This document shows positions 16,146 to 28,545 of a stretch of DNA of 28,545 nucleotides, piece by piece. Each line of letters starts with the position of its first letter. Positions within the stretch are counted from its first letter, which is position 1. The position numbers and the translations under genes are program-made. The stretch is from a virus. Below the pieces are notes generated by a model. The model had not been told where the DNA came from and searched no databases. It was given only the letters and a program-made list of their open reading frames with translations. The DNA is taken from the IMG/VR virus record IMGVR_UViG_3300032278_002605, positions 1 through 28,545 of that record; one strand, written 5' to 3'.

Positions 16146-17401
16146 TCTTCCTCCTGCCCCGCTTCGGTTATGGGGACGTTCTGCATCTGCATTCGTGGCG
16201 TATCGCCGCCCTCGACCGGGGGCAGGTTCTCAAGGGCGCGCACTTCGTTGATCGTGCGCCATCCGTTCTGAAGGCCGGACTGATAGAACTCGGCCCGCGT
16301 CATGCTGTCACCGCGCAGCAGGCCCTCAAGATTGAACTCAATCGAAATTCCGGCATCGCGCTCGGTACGGGACAGCAATTGTTTCTCCAGCGCCTGTTCG
16401 ATCCGCTTGAGGCGGCGGCGCAGGCTGAACTTCACGAAGCCCAGCGTCTGTTGCTCGATCCCGCTGCCCCAGCTGGTCGATTTCTCGGCATGGCCCACCA
16501 TGTGCGGCGGGACGCCAAAAATGCGACAAATCTCCTCGACACCCCAACCGCGCGTCTCGATCATCTGCGCGTCCTCGGGCGACAGGTCGAGCTGGTGCCA
16601 CTCCATCCCCCGATCCAGCACCATCGGGCGGCCGCTGTTCTTCGCCCCGCGGAACTTGTCCTGAAGCAAGGCTTCCAGCTCGGCCCGCTGTTCCTTCGTC
16701 AGCGTGATGCTTTCATGGGTTGCGAGGATGCCGCTCGGCTGAATGCCGTTCGCGAAAATCGATTCTGCCGCCCGGTCGGCCGCCATCGCCGCGTCGAATG
16801 CCCCGCGGCACGTCGCCAGCGTGGACATCCCCGTAAGGCCGTCGCTCAGCGGGCCGCGGATATGCAGGACATCCTTGCTGGACAGCTCGACCTGTTCACC
16901 GTTCTCGGTCCAGCGATACTGAATATCGCCGTTCTCCATCCGGCGCACAGTGACCGCATCGGGGCGCACCGGCGTCAGGGCGATCACCCCGCCGCCTACG
17001 CCCCTGTTGATCCGCGCGTAAGCGTTGCCCTGAAGCTCAATCCCGGCCGACTGGAACTCCCAAAAGTCCACCGCCGTCTGATCGTAGTTCGGGCTGTCGT
17101 GCAGCAACCAATAGAGCGGGTGCCTCCGATCGACCCGCTTCACGTCGCCTTCGCGGCGATAGACCATGAGCGGCAGCGAACCGATCGTGCCCGCGATCAG
17201 GTTGACGCAGGCCCAAGTTGCAGAAAGCCCGATCGCCCCTCGACCCGTCGCCAGCATGATGTCGCGAGCGTCCGCGACCGTGACCTGGTTAGTCCTGAAA
17301 TTCGTTCCATTCTCGGTCGAGAGCATCGAATTGCGCCACGGGATAATGTCTTTCGATTCCCCATCGCGCTCCAGCCCGAACATTTGCCGTAGCCACCCCA
17401 T
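16142..17401 (-). CDS. Portal protein, HK97 type
   Basis: The 419-aa product carries the phage_portal (PF04860-type) core: AIGLSATWACVNLIAGTIGS, LPLMVYRREGDVKRVDRRHP, LLHDSPNYDQTAVDFWEFQS, GNAYARINRG and then VEEICRIFGVPPHMVGHAEK. The R-I-F-x-V-P-P-x-x-V-G motif is the best family landmark. A dodecamer of this protein forms the packaging and exit channel. The start overlaps the large-terminase stop within one base. Sequence length is normal for the family. Confidence 0.94.
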   Translation of the reverse strand: MGWLRQMFGLERDGESKDIIPWRNSMLSTENGTNFRTNQVTVADARDIMLATGRGAIGLSATWACVNLIAGTIGSLPLMVYRREGDVKRVDRRHPLYWLLHDSPNYDQTAVDFWEFQSAGIELQGNAYARINRGVGGGVIALTPVRPDAVTVRRMENGDIQYRWTENGEQVELSSKDVLHIRGPLSDGLTGMSTLATCRGAFDAAMAADRAAESIFANGIQPSGILATHESITLTKEQRAELEALLQDKFRGAKNSGRPMVLDRGMEWHQLDLSPEDAQMIETRGWGVEEICRIFGVPPHMVGHAEKSTSWGSGIEQQTLGFVKFSLRRRLKRIEQALEKQLLSRTERDAGISIEFNLEGLLRGDSMTRAEFYQSGLQNGWRTINEVRALENLPPVEGGDTPRMQMQNVPITEAGQEEE

Positions 17402-18903
17402 CAGGCGAAGCTCGCAATCCAGTCGTCAACCGGCACGGTGGAATCAGTTGCCATCGCCTCAACCCCTTCCGCCATTGCCAGCGCCACCATCCCGTCAATG
17501 CGACCGGTGGCCTTCGACTTGTCCAATTTCCTGTTGCCCGCGGGATCGGGAACCGCGACCGCATTGGCCGCGCACATGGCAAGCACCGGGTGCCCGCCAT
17601 GCCTGATCCGCTCCATCAGCAAGTCGCTCTCCAGCGCGTCCAGCGCAGGCGACATGCTCACATAACCCTGCCCGAATGGCTCCAGCGGCAGATCCACCCC
17701 CGCTGCGTCCAGCGCGGCCTTCATTCGGTCCATCCGCCAGCGGTCGAACCCGATCCGAGCCACCCCCAGCCCTGCCGTAATGTCCGCAATATCCCGCGCG
17801 ACGAAGGCGTAGTCGATCACCCGTCCGGGTGTCGTCCGCAGCAGCCCCTCGCGCACCCAGACATCATACGGTGCCCGGTCCCGCTTCGACGCCTCAGCAA
17901 CGGTGTCGTGCGGCATCCAAAAGAACGGGTGAACATGAAGCACCCCGTCCTTCCGGCATGTCAGCACAAGCGCGGTCAGGTCGGTCGTGGCGGACAAGTC
18001 GAGCCCGCCGAAGACTTGCCCCTCCAGCGGCTCAGGATCTTCGTTGCCCGCCTTCCACACCGCGGGCGACACGAATGCCGCCACCATGTTCCTGCGCTGG
18101 TTTAGCGTCAGCACCCGGAACGTGTTCTCCGCGCTCGGCATCCGCTGAGCCTGCCGCGCCTGTTCCTCTACGTCCTTCTCGCTGCGAAACAGCCCGAGCG
18201 CCGGGTTGGCCGCCCGCCACCCATCGCGATCCATAAGGTCGCAATCGTCGGGAGCCGTATAGACATGGCTCACAATCGTCGGATCTTCAGAACGCTCGGC
18301 GTCGTCGAGCCAGATACTCCACAGGTCCGCATCGGTCGGGGCCTGCGTCGAAATCCCGATAAGCAGCGGCGCGTCGTGCGCCCCTTGCGAAGTCGTGATC
18401 GCGTCCACGAAATCGTTTTGCGGCCCCTTGACCTGCCCCATCTCGTCCAGGATCGCCAGAAACGGCGAAAGCCCGTGTGCGGTTCGACCTTCCGCCGCCA
18501 GCGCCCGGAACTCGGTATTCATCGGCAGTCCGATAAGCCGCTTACCGCTTGGAACGATCCGAACGATCTTTGACAGCTCGGGCGACATCTGCACCATTTT
18601 GGCCGCCAGCCCGAAGACAAGCGCCGCCTGATCGCGGGACAGCGCCCCGCTTACGATCTGCCCGTTCAGCTTCGCTTCCGGCCCGACCAGGTAGGCCAGC
18701 AGCAAGCAGGCGATCAAAGCCGTCTTGCCGTTCTTGCGTCCGACTGAAAGGTAGGCCCTGCGTGTGCCGGCCGGATTGTCCAGCACGTCAAGAATGAACT
18801 TGCGCTGGAACTCAGCAAGCTCGATCGGCTCCCCGACCTTCGCCCCCTCAGGGACCCTGCAATATCGCGAGATGAAGGCGCAAACCTTCTCGCCGCGGGT
18901 CAC
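17401..18903 (-). CDS. Terminase large subunit
   Basis: The 500-aa motor carries a Walker A SVGRKNGKT (53-61), a Walker B FLAILDE (148-154), the coupling region with LLIGISTQAPT and the C-terminal RNase-H-like nuclease with GGLDLSATTDLTALVLT (Asp302) and GRIDGMVALAMA near 467-478. It drives DNA packaging with ATP and cuts the concatemer. The start is GTG at 18903, overlapping the small-subunit stop as GTGA. The family is terminase_1/YmfN-like; HNH and cohesive-end packaging usually go with it. Confidence 0.95.
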   Translation of the reverse strand: MTRGEKVCAFISRYCRVPEGAKVGEPIELAEFQRKFILDVLDNPAGTRRAYLSVGRKNGKTALIACLLLAYLVGPEAKLNGQIVSGALSRDQAALVFGLAAKMVQMSPELSKIVRIVPSGKRLIGLPMNTEFRALAAEGRTAHGLSPFLAILDEMGQVKGPQNDFVDAITTSQGAHDAPLLIGISTQAPTDADLWSIWLDDAERSEDPTIVSHVYTAPDDCDLMDRDGWRAANPALGLFRSEKDVEEQARQAQRMPSAENTFRVLTLNQRRNMVAAFVSPAVWKAGNEDPEPLEGQVFGGLDLSATTDLTALVLTCRKDGVLHVHPFFWMPHDTVAEASKRDRAPYDVWVREGLLRTTPGRVIDYAFVARDIADITAGLGVARIGFDRWRMDRMKAALDAAGVDLPLEPFGQGYVSMSPALDALESDLLMERIRHGGHPVLAMCAANAVAVPDPAGNRKLDKSKATGRIDGMVALAMAEGVEAMATDSTVPVDDWIASFA

Positions 18904-21735: not shown

Positions 21736-22224
21736 TTATGGTCTCACTTTTTGCAAAAGGCAAGGGGGCACCTTCACCGGCAAGGCGAAATCTGCAATGT
21801 CAACTGTGGCATAGCTTTGGGTGCAGGCGCGTACTGTGCCTTGCAGTCCCTGGAATGGGCCAGATGCAAACCGCACGACCGTGCCCGGCTTCGGCAATAG
21901 CCGAGCCGGGACAGGCGGCTTCTTGGAGATATGGCGCAGCGGTTCGAGCGATCGGTCGGCAATGCGCACGACCTTGCCGTCGACGCGCATCATGCTGAAC
22001 GAGACCAGCGGCACCGTCGGCAGCGCGTCGGCAGCGTCTTCCGGTACGAACACGAACGAGGGGATGCAGGCCTCGCTGATTAGCCGTCGAACGTTCGAGC
22101 GCGGTAGTCGACGCTGTCGCTTCCAAGTTGGCGTCCAGGCGCCGTAGGGGGCGAGCCGGTTCGCCAGCGTCAACGTCTTGCTGCTGGGGCAGCGAAGGAC
22201 GATCCATGTGGTCTCGTTCGTCAT
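21736..22224 (-). CDS. NusG-like transcription (anti)termination protein with KOW motif
   Basis: The 162-aa product starts like an NGN domain (TWIVLRCPSSKTLTLANRL, about 6-25, then a basic segment and IPSFVFVPEDAADALP). It ends with a KOW-type domain (KPGTVVRFASGPFQGLQGTV, about 112-131) and VDIADFALPVKVPPCLLQKV. The G-P-F-x-G-L-x-G-x-V core is the NusG/RfaH mark. A NusG paralogue at the early/late boundary could let polymerase read through to the structural genes, replacing a lambda Q-like factor. The ATG at 22224 overlaps the stop of the upstream gene (TGATG); GTG at 22227 is possible. Family level is likely, function inferred. Confidence 0.75.
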   Translation of the reverse strand: MTNETTWIVLRCPSSKTLTLANRLAPYGAWTPTWKRQRRLPRSNVRRLISEACIPSFVFVPEDAADALPTVPLVSFSMMRVDGKVVRIADRSLEPLRHISKKPPVPARLLPKPGTVVRFASGPFQGLQGTVRACTQSYATVDIADFALPVKVPPCLLQKVRP

Positions 22225-22400
22225 CACCGACCCCTGATTTTGGCGAGGTCGTCGATCACGTCCTCGATGGTCTCACAGGCTTCGCGGCGCATCTCAGCGG
22301 CCAGGGAGGGCATGACACCCGACAGGCCGCGCACCATCATCTTCACGGCCATCAAGCGCGCTACAGCATCCTCAATTGTGGGTTTCCTGGAACTACCCAT
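22224..22400 (-). CDS. 58-aa helical protein of unknown function
   Basis: The product reads MGSSRKPTIEDAVARLMAVK, then MMVRGLSGVMPSLAAEMRRE and a Glu/Asp-rich helix end (TIEDVIDDLAKIRGR). It is all helical and may bind DNA or a partner. ATG 22400 has GGAGG 8-9 nt upstream; the stop overlaps the NusG-like start. It is the first gene beyond the repeat field and a TATAAT-like box (22520-22515), so it may be driven from there. Confidence 0.65.
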   Translation of the reverse strand: MGSSRKPTIEDAVARLMAVKMMVRGLSGVMPSLAAEMRREACETIEDVIDDLAKIRGR

Positions 22401-22431: not shown

Positions 22432-22796
22432 AATCGCAACAATCGCAACAATCGCAGAGGGTCTGCGACAGAAGCCTGAAATGCTGCCTTCTTTCATTAG
22501 GAAAGGCCTAAATTATTATATTAAACAATAGGATACCCCTTCTGAATCCCTAGCTGTGGGAATCAGATTGAGGGCGTCCGATGATGAAAAATCGCAAAGT
22601 GTCGCAGATCTATTGCGACAGTTCAGGGTCCTCCCTTTGGATTAAGAACTGACCAGCTGCGAGCTGCGATTCCTGCGATTGTTGCGATTCTGGTCGCTGC
22701 CAGATTGCAGAAACGACAGAATTCTGCGGACTTCACGCCCGCTGCAAGTGTCGCAGCGGCAATCGCACCGTCTGCGACACTTGCGATTGTTTGCGA
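22432..22796. repeat. Iteron field: 16 TGCGA/TCGCA motifs around an AT-rich patch (candidate replication origin)
   Basis: TCGCA or its complement occurs at 22434, 22443, 22452, 22464, 22592, 22602, 22614, 22658, 22665, 22674, 22683, 22751, 22763, 22773, 22782 and 22792. Three runs are spaced at 9 bp: AATCGCAAC tandem at 22432-22458, TGCGATT-type at 22665-22687 and 22773-22786. A longer form AAGTGTCGCAG occurs at 22597-22607 and 22746-22756 and inverted at 22772-22782. A 17-bp all-AT run lies at 22509-22525 between the groups. Beside the DUF3987 ATPase gene this looks like an origin with initiator sites and unwinding element, or an autoregulatory operator array. Confidence 0.6.
22515..22520 (-). 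promoter_or_regulatory. TATAAT box for the 58-aa/NusG-like genes
   Basis: The minus strand contains a perfect TATAAT at 22520-22515 in the only AT-rich patch of the region, about 115 bp upstream of the 58-aa gene. No good -35 is placed at 17 bp, so it may be an activated promoter or simply part of the origin unwinding region. Confidence 0.35.
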
Positions 22797-22808
22797 CCGA
22801 TCAGCCAT
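22623..22808 (-). CDS. Possible 61-aa ORF inside the repeat field
   Basis: The frame starts at an ATG overlapping the DUF3987 stop and reads MADRSQTIASVADGAIAAAT, then ATRIATIAGIAARSW. Much of the sequence is the direct translation of the TGCGA repeats (ATLA, TIAG, AARS). There is no clear ribosome site. I think the DNA repeats, not a protein, are what is selected, so this is listed only as possible. Confidence 0.25.
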   Translation of the reverse strand: MADRSQTIASVADGAIAAATLAAGVKSAEFCRFCNLAATRIATIAGIAARSWSVLNPKGGP

Positions 22809-24351
22809 GGCGCACCAGTACGCGCCATGCAGCGCGCACCTTCTTCCCGCGGATGACACCCCCATCCGAAGTGCGCTCCACGTGGTTATGACGCTCCAGA
22901 ACCTCCAGCACTGACCGAATTCGATCGCTGCGGCTTCGCAGCGTGGCAGGACCGCCTCGACTGATCTCTGTCAGAGAGATTAGCGGTTCTCGCCATTTGT
23001 ATTTAAGCCAATCGGACAGGTCCTGTGCGTCCCGATAGATTGGGTCGATGGCCTTTTGCCCGAAAAGCCGAAGAGCTTCGTTGAGGTAGAAATCCGCGAG
23101 ACCGATGCCGCAGGCCATGGCGCGACCGTCAATCTCTTCGATCCCGGAACCTTCGTCGAACACCGCGACATTGGCCGCGAGCCGAGCGGCCATTTCCGGC
23201 AGCTTACCGACAAACCCTTTTACGGCGTGCAGTCGGCCCTCAGGGCCGAGCTGCCGCTCGAGATCGTTGTAGTATTCCCACCACATCCTGGCTGCTTTGT
23301 TCGAAAGGGGCAGGGCGCGGGGGGTTAGAACCAGCGTGTCAGGCTCGACCGGCAAGTTGGCTCGAATGATGCGATCAAGCCGTTCGCTATATGTGTCCAA
23401 CTTAGCTTTCGCGTCAGCATCAATCCCAGCCGTGGGATCCACGATCCGGGTTCCCGCCAAACTCTCAGGATGCGAGACGAGCATTCGGCTAAGAAAGCCT
23501 TGGCCCAATGCTTCTTCGTCCCCCAGCAGTCGCTCTGCAACGATGGGCTGCACCATCATGTGAAAGGTAAGCCGGCGACCCCGGAGGGCGGTGAACCCTT
23601 CTCCGGCTGTCAGTATCTGTACGGTCGCACCGTCCCAGAAGTCGCTGAGCGTGGTGATCGTGGCCAGCCGGTTGTCATCGCTCATACCGAAGCCGCCCAA
23701 CCAAGAGCCACCTTCGTCCGACATTAGCCCAAGCGACGGCCGGCAGCTGGAGAAACGACGCAGGAGACCCTGCGTCGTTCCCGTCCGCACGGCAATGGTT
23801 GGCTCAATTGGGCCATCGGGTCGCGGACCGAGTTCGATATATGCGCTCTCCAGCGCCTCACGACCTTGCTTCTTTACCCGCTGAGTGACTTCGCGCTTGG
23901 CTTCGTCCCAAGCCGTTTGCGCGAGGGCAGCACTCGCGCGATCCCGACCGAACTGATCCTCCAGCTCTCGTTCAAATGCCTTCACTGGTCCGAGGGCCAG
24001 ATCATCCGAGGTGGACTTGCGGTCGCCGCTTTCGGCGACAGAAACGAGAAATAGGCTAGTGGGGCGCTCTTTGCCCGTCGGCAGAATAACGTTGAAATGC
24101 GGCTGGACCGCCAGCGAGCAGGCGGCCAGCACGGATTGGGCTGCAAGGCTCGGAGGAACGAAGGCGAGTTTCGCGATGCCTTCAACAGCGCCTTGCATCG
24201 TCGCGCCGAGATACTGGCTTGGATAGGGAGCCTGCTCATCCCTGGTCGGCATGAGCGGTTCGGGCTCCGGTCCTCGCGGTTCGGGATCGCCAAGGTATTC
24301 GGAAGCTCGTGACGCCAGTTCACGCTCTATGGATTCGTCATTAGCCAACAA
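22801..24351 (-). CDS. DUF3987/YfjI-family ATPase, replication protein
   Basis: The 516-aa product has a P-loop-like VSVAESGDRKSTSDD (about 103-117), the family form SG-(D/E)-RKS, and a Walker-B-like LGLMSDEGGSWLGG (207-220). Further landmarks are TAGEGFTALRGRRLTFHMMV, LLGDEEALGQGFLSRMLVSH and the C-terminal winged-helix-like SLTEISRGGPATLRSRSDRI and VLEVLERHNHVERTSDGGVI. Members occur in phages and plasmids as helicase/primase-like replication proteins. The start is TTG at 24351 with GAGGG about 9 nt upstream; no good ATG fits. The iteron field lies right after its stop. Confidence 0.8.
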   Translation of the reverse strand: MLANDESIERELASRASEYLGDPEPRGPEPEPLMPTRDEQAPYPSQYLGATMQGAVEGIAKLAFVPPSLAAQSVLAACSLAVQPHFNVILPTGKERPTSLFLVSVAESGDRKSTSDDLALGPVKAFERELEDQFGRDRASAALAQTAWDEAKREVTQRVKKQGREALESAYIELGPRPDGPIEPTIAVRTGTTQGLLRRFSSCRPSLGLMSDEGGSWLGGFGMSDDNRLATITTLSDFWDGATVQILTAGEGFTALRGRRLTFHMMVQPIVAERLLGDEEALGQGFLSRMLVSHPESLAGTRIVDPTAGIDADAKAKLDTYSERLDRIIRANLPVEPDTLVLTPRALPLSNKAARMWWEYYNDLERQLGPEGRLHAVKGFVGKLPEMAARLAANVAVFDEGSGIEEIDGRAMACGIGLADFYLNEALRLFGQKAIDPIYRDAQDLSDWLKYKWREPLISLTEISRGGPATLRSRSDRIRSVLEVLERHNHVERTSDGGVIRGKKVRAAWRVLVRHG

Positions 24352-28125: not shown

Positions 28126-28170
28126 CTGCCGAAGGCTGGCGCGATGCAACACAGATGCAACATTCGGCAG
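28126..28170. repeat. Inverted repeat enclosing two 9-bp direct repeats (candidate integrase arm sites)
   Basis: CTGCCGAA (28126-28133) and TTCGGCAG (28163-28170) are perfect inverted copies. Between them GATGCAACA occurs twice, 11 bp apart (28143-28151 and 28154-28162). Close to the tRNA core and downstream of the integrase, these look like arm-type binding sites. Confidence 0.55.
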
Positions 28171-28187
28171 GAAAGCCTAGGCTTTCC
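28170..28187. repeat. Perfect 18-bp palindrome beside the att core
   Basis: GGAAAGCCTAGGCTTTCC is self-complementary. It lies 11 bp from the tRNA fragment and could be an integrase or excisionase site or a host-factor site; as RNA it would be a 9-bp perfect hairpin. Confidence 0.6.
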
Positions 28188-28198
28188 GCCGCTTTCTT

Positions 28199-28247
28199 AC
28201 GGACTCTGACTCCGTCAATCGTGGTTCGAATCCACGCGGGGCATCCA
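28199..28247 (+). tRNA. 3' fragment of tRNA-Gln(CUG), attR-type core
   Basis: The bases form the anticodon arm ACGGA-CTCTGAC-TCCGT (28199-28215, anticodon CTG), a 4-nt variable loop, the T arm CGTGG-TTCGAAT-CCACG (28220-28236) and the 3' acceptor strand CGGGGCA-T-CCA. The 5' half (acceptor and D arm) is not in front: phage sequence is there instead. This is the piece left at one side when a tyrosine integrase uses the anticodon-loop to 3'-end of a tRNA. It is not a working tRNA; the intact gene should be at the other boundary. Confidence 0.85.
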
Positions 28248-28303
28248 GCTTTTCCTTGCCAGACCGGATGTTTTGGCCCCCCGCGTGATGGCAGCGCGGC
28301 TGG

Positions 28304-28545
28304 CTAGGCACGCGTTTCGGGCGTCGTTTCCTCCGCTTCCAGCGGATCAGCGATTTTCAGCGCCAGGGCTTCGAGCCGTTCGGCGAGATCGCGCGCTTCA
28401 TCCTGCGACAGGGCCGACAGGATCGCGCGCTCGACCGCCATGTCCTCGCGAAAGGCGGCTTCGGCCAGCGCGCGTCCTTCATCCGTCAGTTCGACCGGGA
28501 GGCTGCGCTTGTCGCTTCCGGCCGCCGTGCGCCGGACCAGGCCGC
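28304..28545 (-). CDS. MarR-type regulator, C-terminal part (runs off the window)
   Basis: The visible 79 residues include the wing and dimer helices of a MarR winged HTH: GLVRRTAAGSDKRSLPVELT, DEGRALAEAAFREDMAVERA and LSQDEARDLAERLEALALKI. The R-R-x-x-x-x-x-D-K-R-S motif and L-T-D-E-G-R are diagnostic. It lies beyond the tRNA fragment, so it is host DNA. The N-terminus lies outside the window. Confidence 0.8.
   Translation of the reverse strand, partial: GLVRRTAAGSDKRSLPVELTDEGRALAEAAFREDMAVERAILSALSQDEARDLAERLEALALKIADPLEAEETTPETRA

Follow-up and report, generated by a model that had tools for sequence, protein, structure and literature searches.

Phased repeats downstream of a phage DUF3987 gene: a likely iteron origin for a predicted self-loading helicase

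Introduction

What does a dense field of short, regularly spaced repeats do at the end of a phage gene that encodes a DUF3987 protein? DUF3987, a domain whose function is unknown, occurs in phages, prophages, plasmids and satellites and has earlier been predicted only as a helicase family (PMC5862659). In our literature search, it was not found joined with iterons, and neither an origin nor a DNA target was found for it. The field considered here lies in a virus record of 28,545 bases (IMGVR_UViG_3300032278_002605), the whole of which is referred to as the window, and a first-pass annotation of its letters had offered two readings: an iteron origin or a repressor array. As set out below, comparison with related loci makes it very likely that the phage starts its replication at the field, as an iteron origin, with the DUF3987 protein as the proposed self-loading initiator helicase.

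A dense and modular repeat field

Within positions 22434–22796 of the window there are 16 copies of TGCGA or its complement TCGCA, far above what shuffled sequence yields: 300 dinucleotide shuffles of the whole window gave at most 8 copies per any 365 bp (mean 5.4), and shuffles of the field itself gave a mean of 1.65 and a maximum of 8. The comparison with the rest of the window proposed in the first-pass annotation indicates that this density is local to the field, since TGCGA is not enriched window-wide (93 occurrences versus 101 expected); moreover, the exact octamer TTGCGATT occurs in the field and nowhere else in the window. Starting where the DUF3987 gene (22801–24351, minus strand; PF13148, E 5e-81) ends, the field spans the region from the stop codon of that gene to a short ORF preceding a NusG/UpxY-like gene.

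Several modules, none of which is assigned a strand, can be told apart. The one adjoining the stop codon (22744–22796) combines a perfect 13-bp inverted repeat, GCAAGTGTCGCAG (arms 22744–22756 and 22772–22784), with more copies of the motif, and has the strongest single-strand fold among four tested (z -6.0); three palindromes fold well, at z -4.4 to -6.0. It is followed by the iteron triple T1 (22658–22687), whose copies at 22665, 22674 and 22683 are set at 9-bp steps with an extra copy at 22658, and by module B (22592–22620), which holds one iteron and the dyad TGTCGCA-N7-TGCGACA (22600–22620), the spacer of which differs among close relatives while the half-sites are constant. The far end is formed by the triple T2 (22434–22468), with copies at 22434, 22443 and 22452, again at 9-bp steps, and an inverted copy at 22464. 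The first-pass description of the field thus held for the copy number, the perfect inverted repeat, a 17-bp all-A/T segment (22509–22525) and the position at the end of a DUF3987 ATPase gene. Its three exact 9-bp runs came down to the two triples and a pair (22773/22782), as the copy after this pair, 22792, is spaced 10 bp.

A reading frame of 80 aa (or 61 aa, from a start at 22808) also runs through the first half of the field (22623–22865, minus strand). It is conserved in the related locus L004 (85% identical) and weakly in L054 (43%), and may be either coding or a by-product of the repeats. Reading frames with I-A / V-A repeats overlap the arrays both in the window and in the more distant locus L014.

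Among close relatives, L004 encodes a DUF3987 protein 96% identical to that of the window and has kept the field, with 79/80 motif bases identical versus 259/295 of the other bases. Modules B and T2 are likewise kept in L005, where the spacer inside the TGTCGCA-N7-TGCGACA dyad is altered. Among phages, a DNA-similarity search gave a single match of 103 bp, which lies outside the field. At the contig ends, the flanks of the window (28142–28537) and of L004 (470–864) are 95% identical, perhaps reflecting the same host integration site.

An AT-rich patch at a fixed distance

The all-A/T segment belongs to an AT-rich patch (22496–22525, no strand) that is the AT-richest 30-mer in the 900 bp past the stop codon and a candidate unwinding element. 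It lies 63–85 bp from T2 in 13/13 loci of the window's group, even where the separation of T1 and T2 is about 370 bp greater, and its sequence differs in most of them. When such a patch was sought in the convergent fields outside the window's group (see below), no clear one was found.

The alignment of this group further revealed the heptamer CTATTGT (22525–22531, minus strand), invariant in all 13 aligned loci, and, together with a fold test, a second dyad unrelated to the iterons, TCTGAATCCC-N7-GGGAATCAGA (22541–22567, no strand). The arms of this dyad vary between relatives yet mostly stay complementary; because the arms were chosen by eye, the permutation result for them is biased upward. 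Placed beside CTATTGT and the AT-rich patch, the dyad might form a hairpin at which primase starts, bind a second protein or belong to a promoter. In the same alignment, the iterons switch together, from GCGA to GCTA.

Searches for other origin and promoter features gave neither a DnaA box (TTWTNCACA within one mismatch) nor an IHF site in the field, and a simple scan found no promoter at the AT-rich patch. The GC skew of the window has a minimum plateau around 20–24 kb, near the field, where it is confounded by a change of gene direction.

The field's downstream neighbour, which lies outside the proposed origin, is the gene for the NusG/UpxY-like antiterminator (21736–22227, minus strand; PHROG 6386, with NF033644 below cut-off). 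This phage gene follows the field in some other members of the group too and may control the late operon; beyond it lie genes for an HNH endonuclease and for an HK97-type terminase, portal, protease and capsid. The terminase large subunit (17401–18903) is about 62% identical to those of enterobacterial HK022/HK97-type phages, a far closer relationship than that of the replication genes.

Phased arrays follow many DUF3987 genes

Two distant relatives carry different motifs at the matching place, namely CCGCTAC in L014 (Paracoccus pTAV4, 36%) and TGGCGAC in L015 (a P. putida plasmid, 35%), and for this reason DUF3987 loci were collected from viral and genome contigs, about 170 related loci being compared overall. 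Counted in 113 loci, exact 6-mer repeats with a period of 9 averaged 6.9 in the 700 bp that surround and follow the stop codon, as opposed to 0.5 within the gene body, 0.76 on its upstream side and 0.87 at a distance of two kilobases downstream. A strict test, which required a phased 5-mer array within 400 bp, detected arrays at 9-bp steps just after the stop codon in 83/118 DUF3987 loci versus 11/562 control segments. The motif itself varies by locus and includes TGCGAC, TGCGAT, TGCTAC, TGCTAA, CGCTAC and TCCTAC.

The arrays are not universal, given that 35/118 loci were negative in the strict test and that both enterobacterial YfjI loci examined (L211 and L213) are devoid of them. The first-pass annotation had regarded relatives that keep the DUF3987 gene and lack the repeats as evidence against an origin, and these loci give that objection some substance; on the other side stand the 83 array-bearing loci as well as those failures in which an array is displaced or imperfect. 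Displaced 9-bp-phased arrays occur at +1400 (L028), +2379 (L027) and +1243 (L073) after the DUF3987 stop, perhaps as a result of gene insertions, and imperfect ones in L101, L110 and L038. The YfjI genes of L211 and L213 adjoin AlpA and Gp2-type genes, and these loci may have an origin of another type.

Three direct plus three inverted copies at 9-bp steps constitute the commonest layout (40/72), which was also seen in the Legionella plasmid L212, with TGCGAC at 8–9-bp steps. The gaps between such convergent triples cluster at 19–20 bp (24 loci), 28–31 bp (32) and 38–41 bp (6), in counts that related loci enter more than once. As these gaps differ by about one helical turn, they suggest that a single complex holds both triples. 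The window's group departs from the convergent 3+3 fields in that its triples are far apart and divergent.

On the other side of the DUF3987 gene, a homologous gene lies upstream in 50/64 loci and a Toprim primase domain was present in 9/9 of those tested; where present, the primase is encoded by a separate gene, usually directly upstream of DUF3987, a neighbourhood that points to replication. The usual adjacent primase gene is absent from the window's phage. In L056, the upstream DnaG-like primase has an apparent intein-like insertion (GETGVITYDGT...) in its zinc-finger region.

A predicted MCM-like core and a C-terminal winged helix

The DUF3987 protein of the window comprises 516 aa and matches PF13148 with 273 bits versus a curated cut-off of 27, as well as PHROG 2373 (‘DNA helicase’). 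A Pfam scan gives DUF3987 alone, with no match to any MCM family at E 1e-3, and a sequence search among solved structures produced no convincing DUF3987 entry. An AlphaFold2 model based on 83 homologues (pLDDT 93) places an MCM-like AAA+ fold at residues ~49–433, a likeness that belongs to the predicted model only (6mii_A, Z 18.4, rmsd 3.6, 269 residues aligned).

This core is followed by a predicted winged helix (residues 437–511; 22819–23043, minus strand), which the structure models and the covariation described below single out as the putative iteron-reading domain. When searched alone, the domain retrieved only generic winged-helix matches and accordingly no DNA-bound template for its helix 2. 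It is in helix 2 (460–466) that the model puts residues 461 and 465, one turn apart. In most winged helices, the reading helix is helix 3, and the location of the covarying residues in helix 2 rather than in this usual recognition helix speaks against the reading preferred here.

Two residues track the iteron sequence

If the iteron is written as TGC-K-A-N, its fourth position (G or T) can be set against each alignment column of the protein in turn. For this purpose, eight loci were labelled manually and eight doubtful ones were dropped. Residue 465 came out as the top column for position 4, with a z of 17.4 as compared to 8.9 for the next: where the base is G, Arg occupies the residue in 22/27 loci, and where it is T, Gln does so in 23/32. 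For position 6 the top column is residue 461, which is Arg or Lys where the sixth base is C (R461 in 29/35 loci). The codons of residues 461–465, T461 and R465 in the window's protein, lie at 22957–22971 (minus strand).

Shared ancestry was addressed with a tree built from residues 1–430, i.e. leaving out the C-terminal domain. On this tree, the position-4 motif changed 13 times, and in seven well-supported independent pairs residue 465 followed the motif in an average of 6.6 and opposed it in 0.0. The rule was then fixed beforehand and applied to 47 new non-redundant loci, where it was correct for position 4 in 24/27 testable cases (Fisher P 7e-5, treating loci as independent and hence optimistic, because loci are related) and for position 6 in 29/30, or in 27/28 once two loci whose proteins are gapped at residue 461 are excluded. 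The plasmid L212 fits as well, having Arg at both positions within the C-terminal sequence VREIQRLSP. A particularly close natural pair is that of L138 and L117, whose proteins are 84% identical and combine Q465 with GCTAC and R465 with GCGAC, respectively.

Context affects the code in at least one case: two of the three held-out errors involve S461/R465, as in L115 of the first set, and likewise show GCTA followed by A/T. Proteins with S461/R465 (L115, L156 and L192) all go with GCTA and then A/T, as in GCTAT, and form a consistent exception to the simple rule that points to an interplay between the two residues. Taken together, covariation and held-out prediction suggest that residues 461 and 465 of the helicase read the repeats and that iteron specificity is probably set by the C-terminal domain. 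A two-residue reading of iterons by a DUF3987 helicase was not found described in our literature search.

Proposed mechanism and alternatives

Computation shows the arrays and where they sit relative to DUF3987 genes, the 3+3 layout, covariation and held-out prediction, the fixed AT-rich patch of the window's group and the predicted fold. From these we infer physical binding, assembly of a hexamer on 3+3 sites, melting and the start of replication. In this model, the gene directly upstream supplies an MCM-like AAA+ helicase, the DUF3987 protein. Its C-terminal winged helix would bind the TGCGA iterons, where residue 461 would read base position 6 of TGC-G/T-A-N and residue 465 base position 4. 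The protein would assemble on the 9-bp-phased triples in opposite orientation, melt the AT-rich patch between the arrays and load itself as the replicative helicase, without DnaA. The iteron origin named in the first-pass annotation is thus supported by arrays that recur after DUF3987 genes and covary with the winged helix, and by an AT-rich patch at a fixed distance from T2.

The DUF3987 protein might also bind the field as a mere control site, for copy control, autorepression or as an operator of the downstream operon, while the true origin lies elsewhere. We consider this unlikely, even though the field does separate the DUF3987 gene from an operon whose first members are the short ORF and the NusG-like antiterminator gene. 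Operators of plasmid Rep proteins mix palindromic and direct copies, as this field does, and the AT-rich patch could be a promoter, despite the negative promoter scan. What weighs against a control site is that the arrays lie downstream of the DUF3987 gene and not in front of it, that the genes following them differ between groups (the largest downstream cluster covers 16/64 loci) and that the upstream neighbour is usually a primase. Considerably less probable still is that the field serves as an operator array to which either the 251-aa regulator or the excisionase-like HTH protein (PF12728 match) binds, two phage proteins that are both encoded nearby. The regulators of the window and L004 are alike in the first 83 residues only, at 33% identity, so that the protein has been largely replaced while the field's motif bases (79/80) have not changed, which makes the field unlikely to be its operator and disfavours the ‘repressor array’ of the first-pass annotation. 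The regulator and the HTH protein are each found in only two other loci of the window's group and both differ or are missing in relatives with the same field; the arrays, in contrast, accompany DUF3987 and their motif tracks its residues. This candidate was rejected.

Action as RNA, with leader hairpins of the antiterminator operon serving as an anti-termination or put-like element, would agree with the well-folding palindromes (z -4.4 to -6.0) and with the NusG/UpxY-like gene that comes after the field. It is nevertheless very improbable, as the direct triples, which are unable to pair among themselves, are equally conserved, the NusG-like gene cluster occurs in only 15/64 array-bearing loci and the motif covaries with the winged-helix domain of the helicase. 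Finally, 9 bp correspond to three codons, and a small reading frame through the field, like the I-A / V-A repeat frames overlapping the arrays of the window and L014, raises the thought that the repeats are a by-product of coding. There is next to no likelihood of this: the motif appears in either orientation and also beyond the frame, in modules B and T2, and between the window and L004 the motif bases are better kept than their neighbours (79/80 versus 259/295), on which grounds a coding artefact was rejected.

Beyond the window, we would give roughly even chances to the more general idea that DUF3987/YfjI-type proteins are widespread MCM-like self-loading bacterial initiator helicases with hexamer-matched 3+3 iteron origins, in which the 461/465 code switches origin specificity and thereby avoids cross-replication.

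Comparison with known systems

In the staphylococcal SaPI and SCCmec islands, each helicase lineage has its own iteron. Two self-loading helicases, SaPI Rep and SCCmec Cch2 (the latter with a putative origin), use their C-terminal domain to bind iterons directly downstream of their own gene (PMC7581432), the same placement as that seen in 83/118 DUF3987 loci. Unlike these proteins, which belong to the DUF927 and D5/Primase_Cterm families, the window's protein gives DUF3987 only in a Pfam scan, and neither the 9-bp-phased 3+3 inverted layout nor a 461/465 code was found described in the parts of the SaPI/SCCmec report consulted (PMC7581432). By analogy, DUF3987 appears to work like SaPI Rep and Cch2, from another helicase family.

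The alpha protein of phage P4 offers a further parallel, in that the C-terminal winged helix of a helicase binds short iterons in both orientations (ori/crr). Alpha fuses primase and helicase and has a second iteron site kilobases away, whereas the DUF3987 protein lacks a fused primase, which is a separate gene in most loci. The iteron plasmids pSC101, R6K and RK2 have direct iterons beside an AT-rich patch and inverted copies in regulatory positions; their iterons measure about 17–22 bp, and initiation there involves DnaA boxes and an initiator other than a helicase. An AT-rich region at a fixed distance from the iterons is shared by the window's group (13/13), though not seen in convergent fields, while the 9-bp phasing and the field without a DnaA box set the present system apart. 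In the PICMI satellites of Vibrio, the primase gene is defined partly by DUF3987; the word iteron is absent from that report, and the parts of it consulted yielded no mapped origin (PMC10803314).

DUF3987 thereby gains a probable function, a target and a recognition rule of two residues from which the iterons of unseen loci can be predicted, meaning that in many elements the sequence itself could suffice to annotate the origin. Closely related helicases that differ in their iterons form natural pairs, available for comparisons of binding and compatibility. The archaeal and eukaryotic MCM helicases need loaders, and we know of no case in which an MCM winged helix reads iterons. DUF3987 resembles them in its predicted AAA+ core followed by a winged helix and differs in having no match to the MCM sequence family, and it may thus offer a simple bacterial comparison for MCM-type origin melting.
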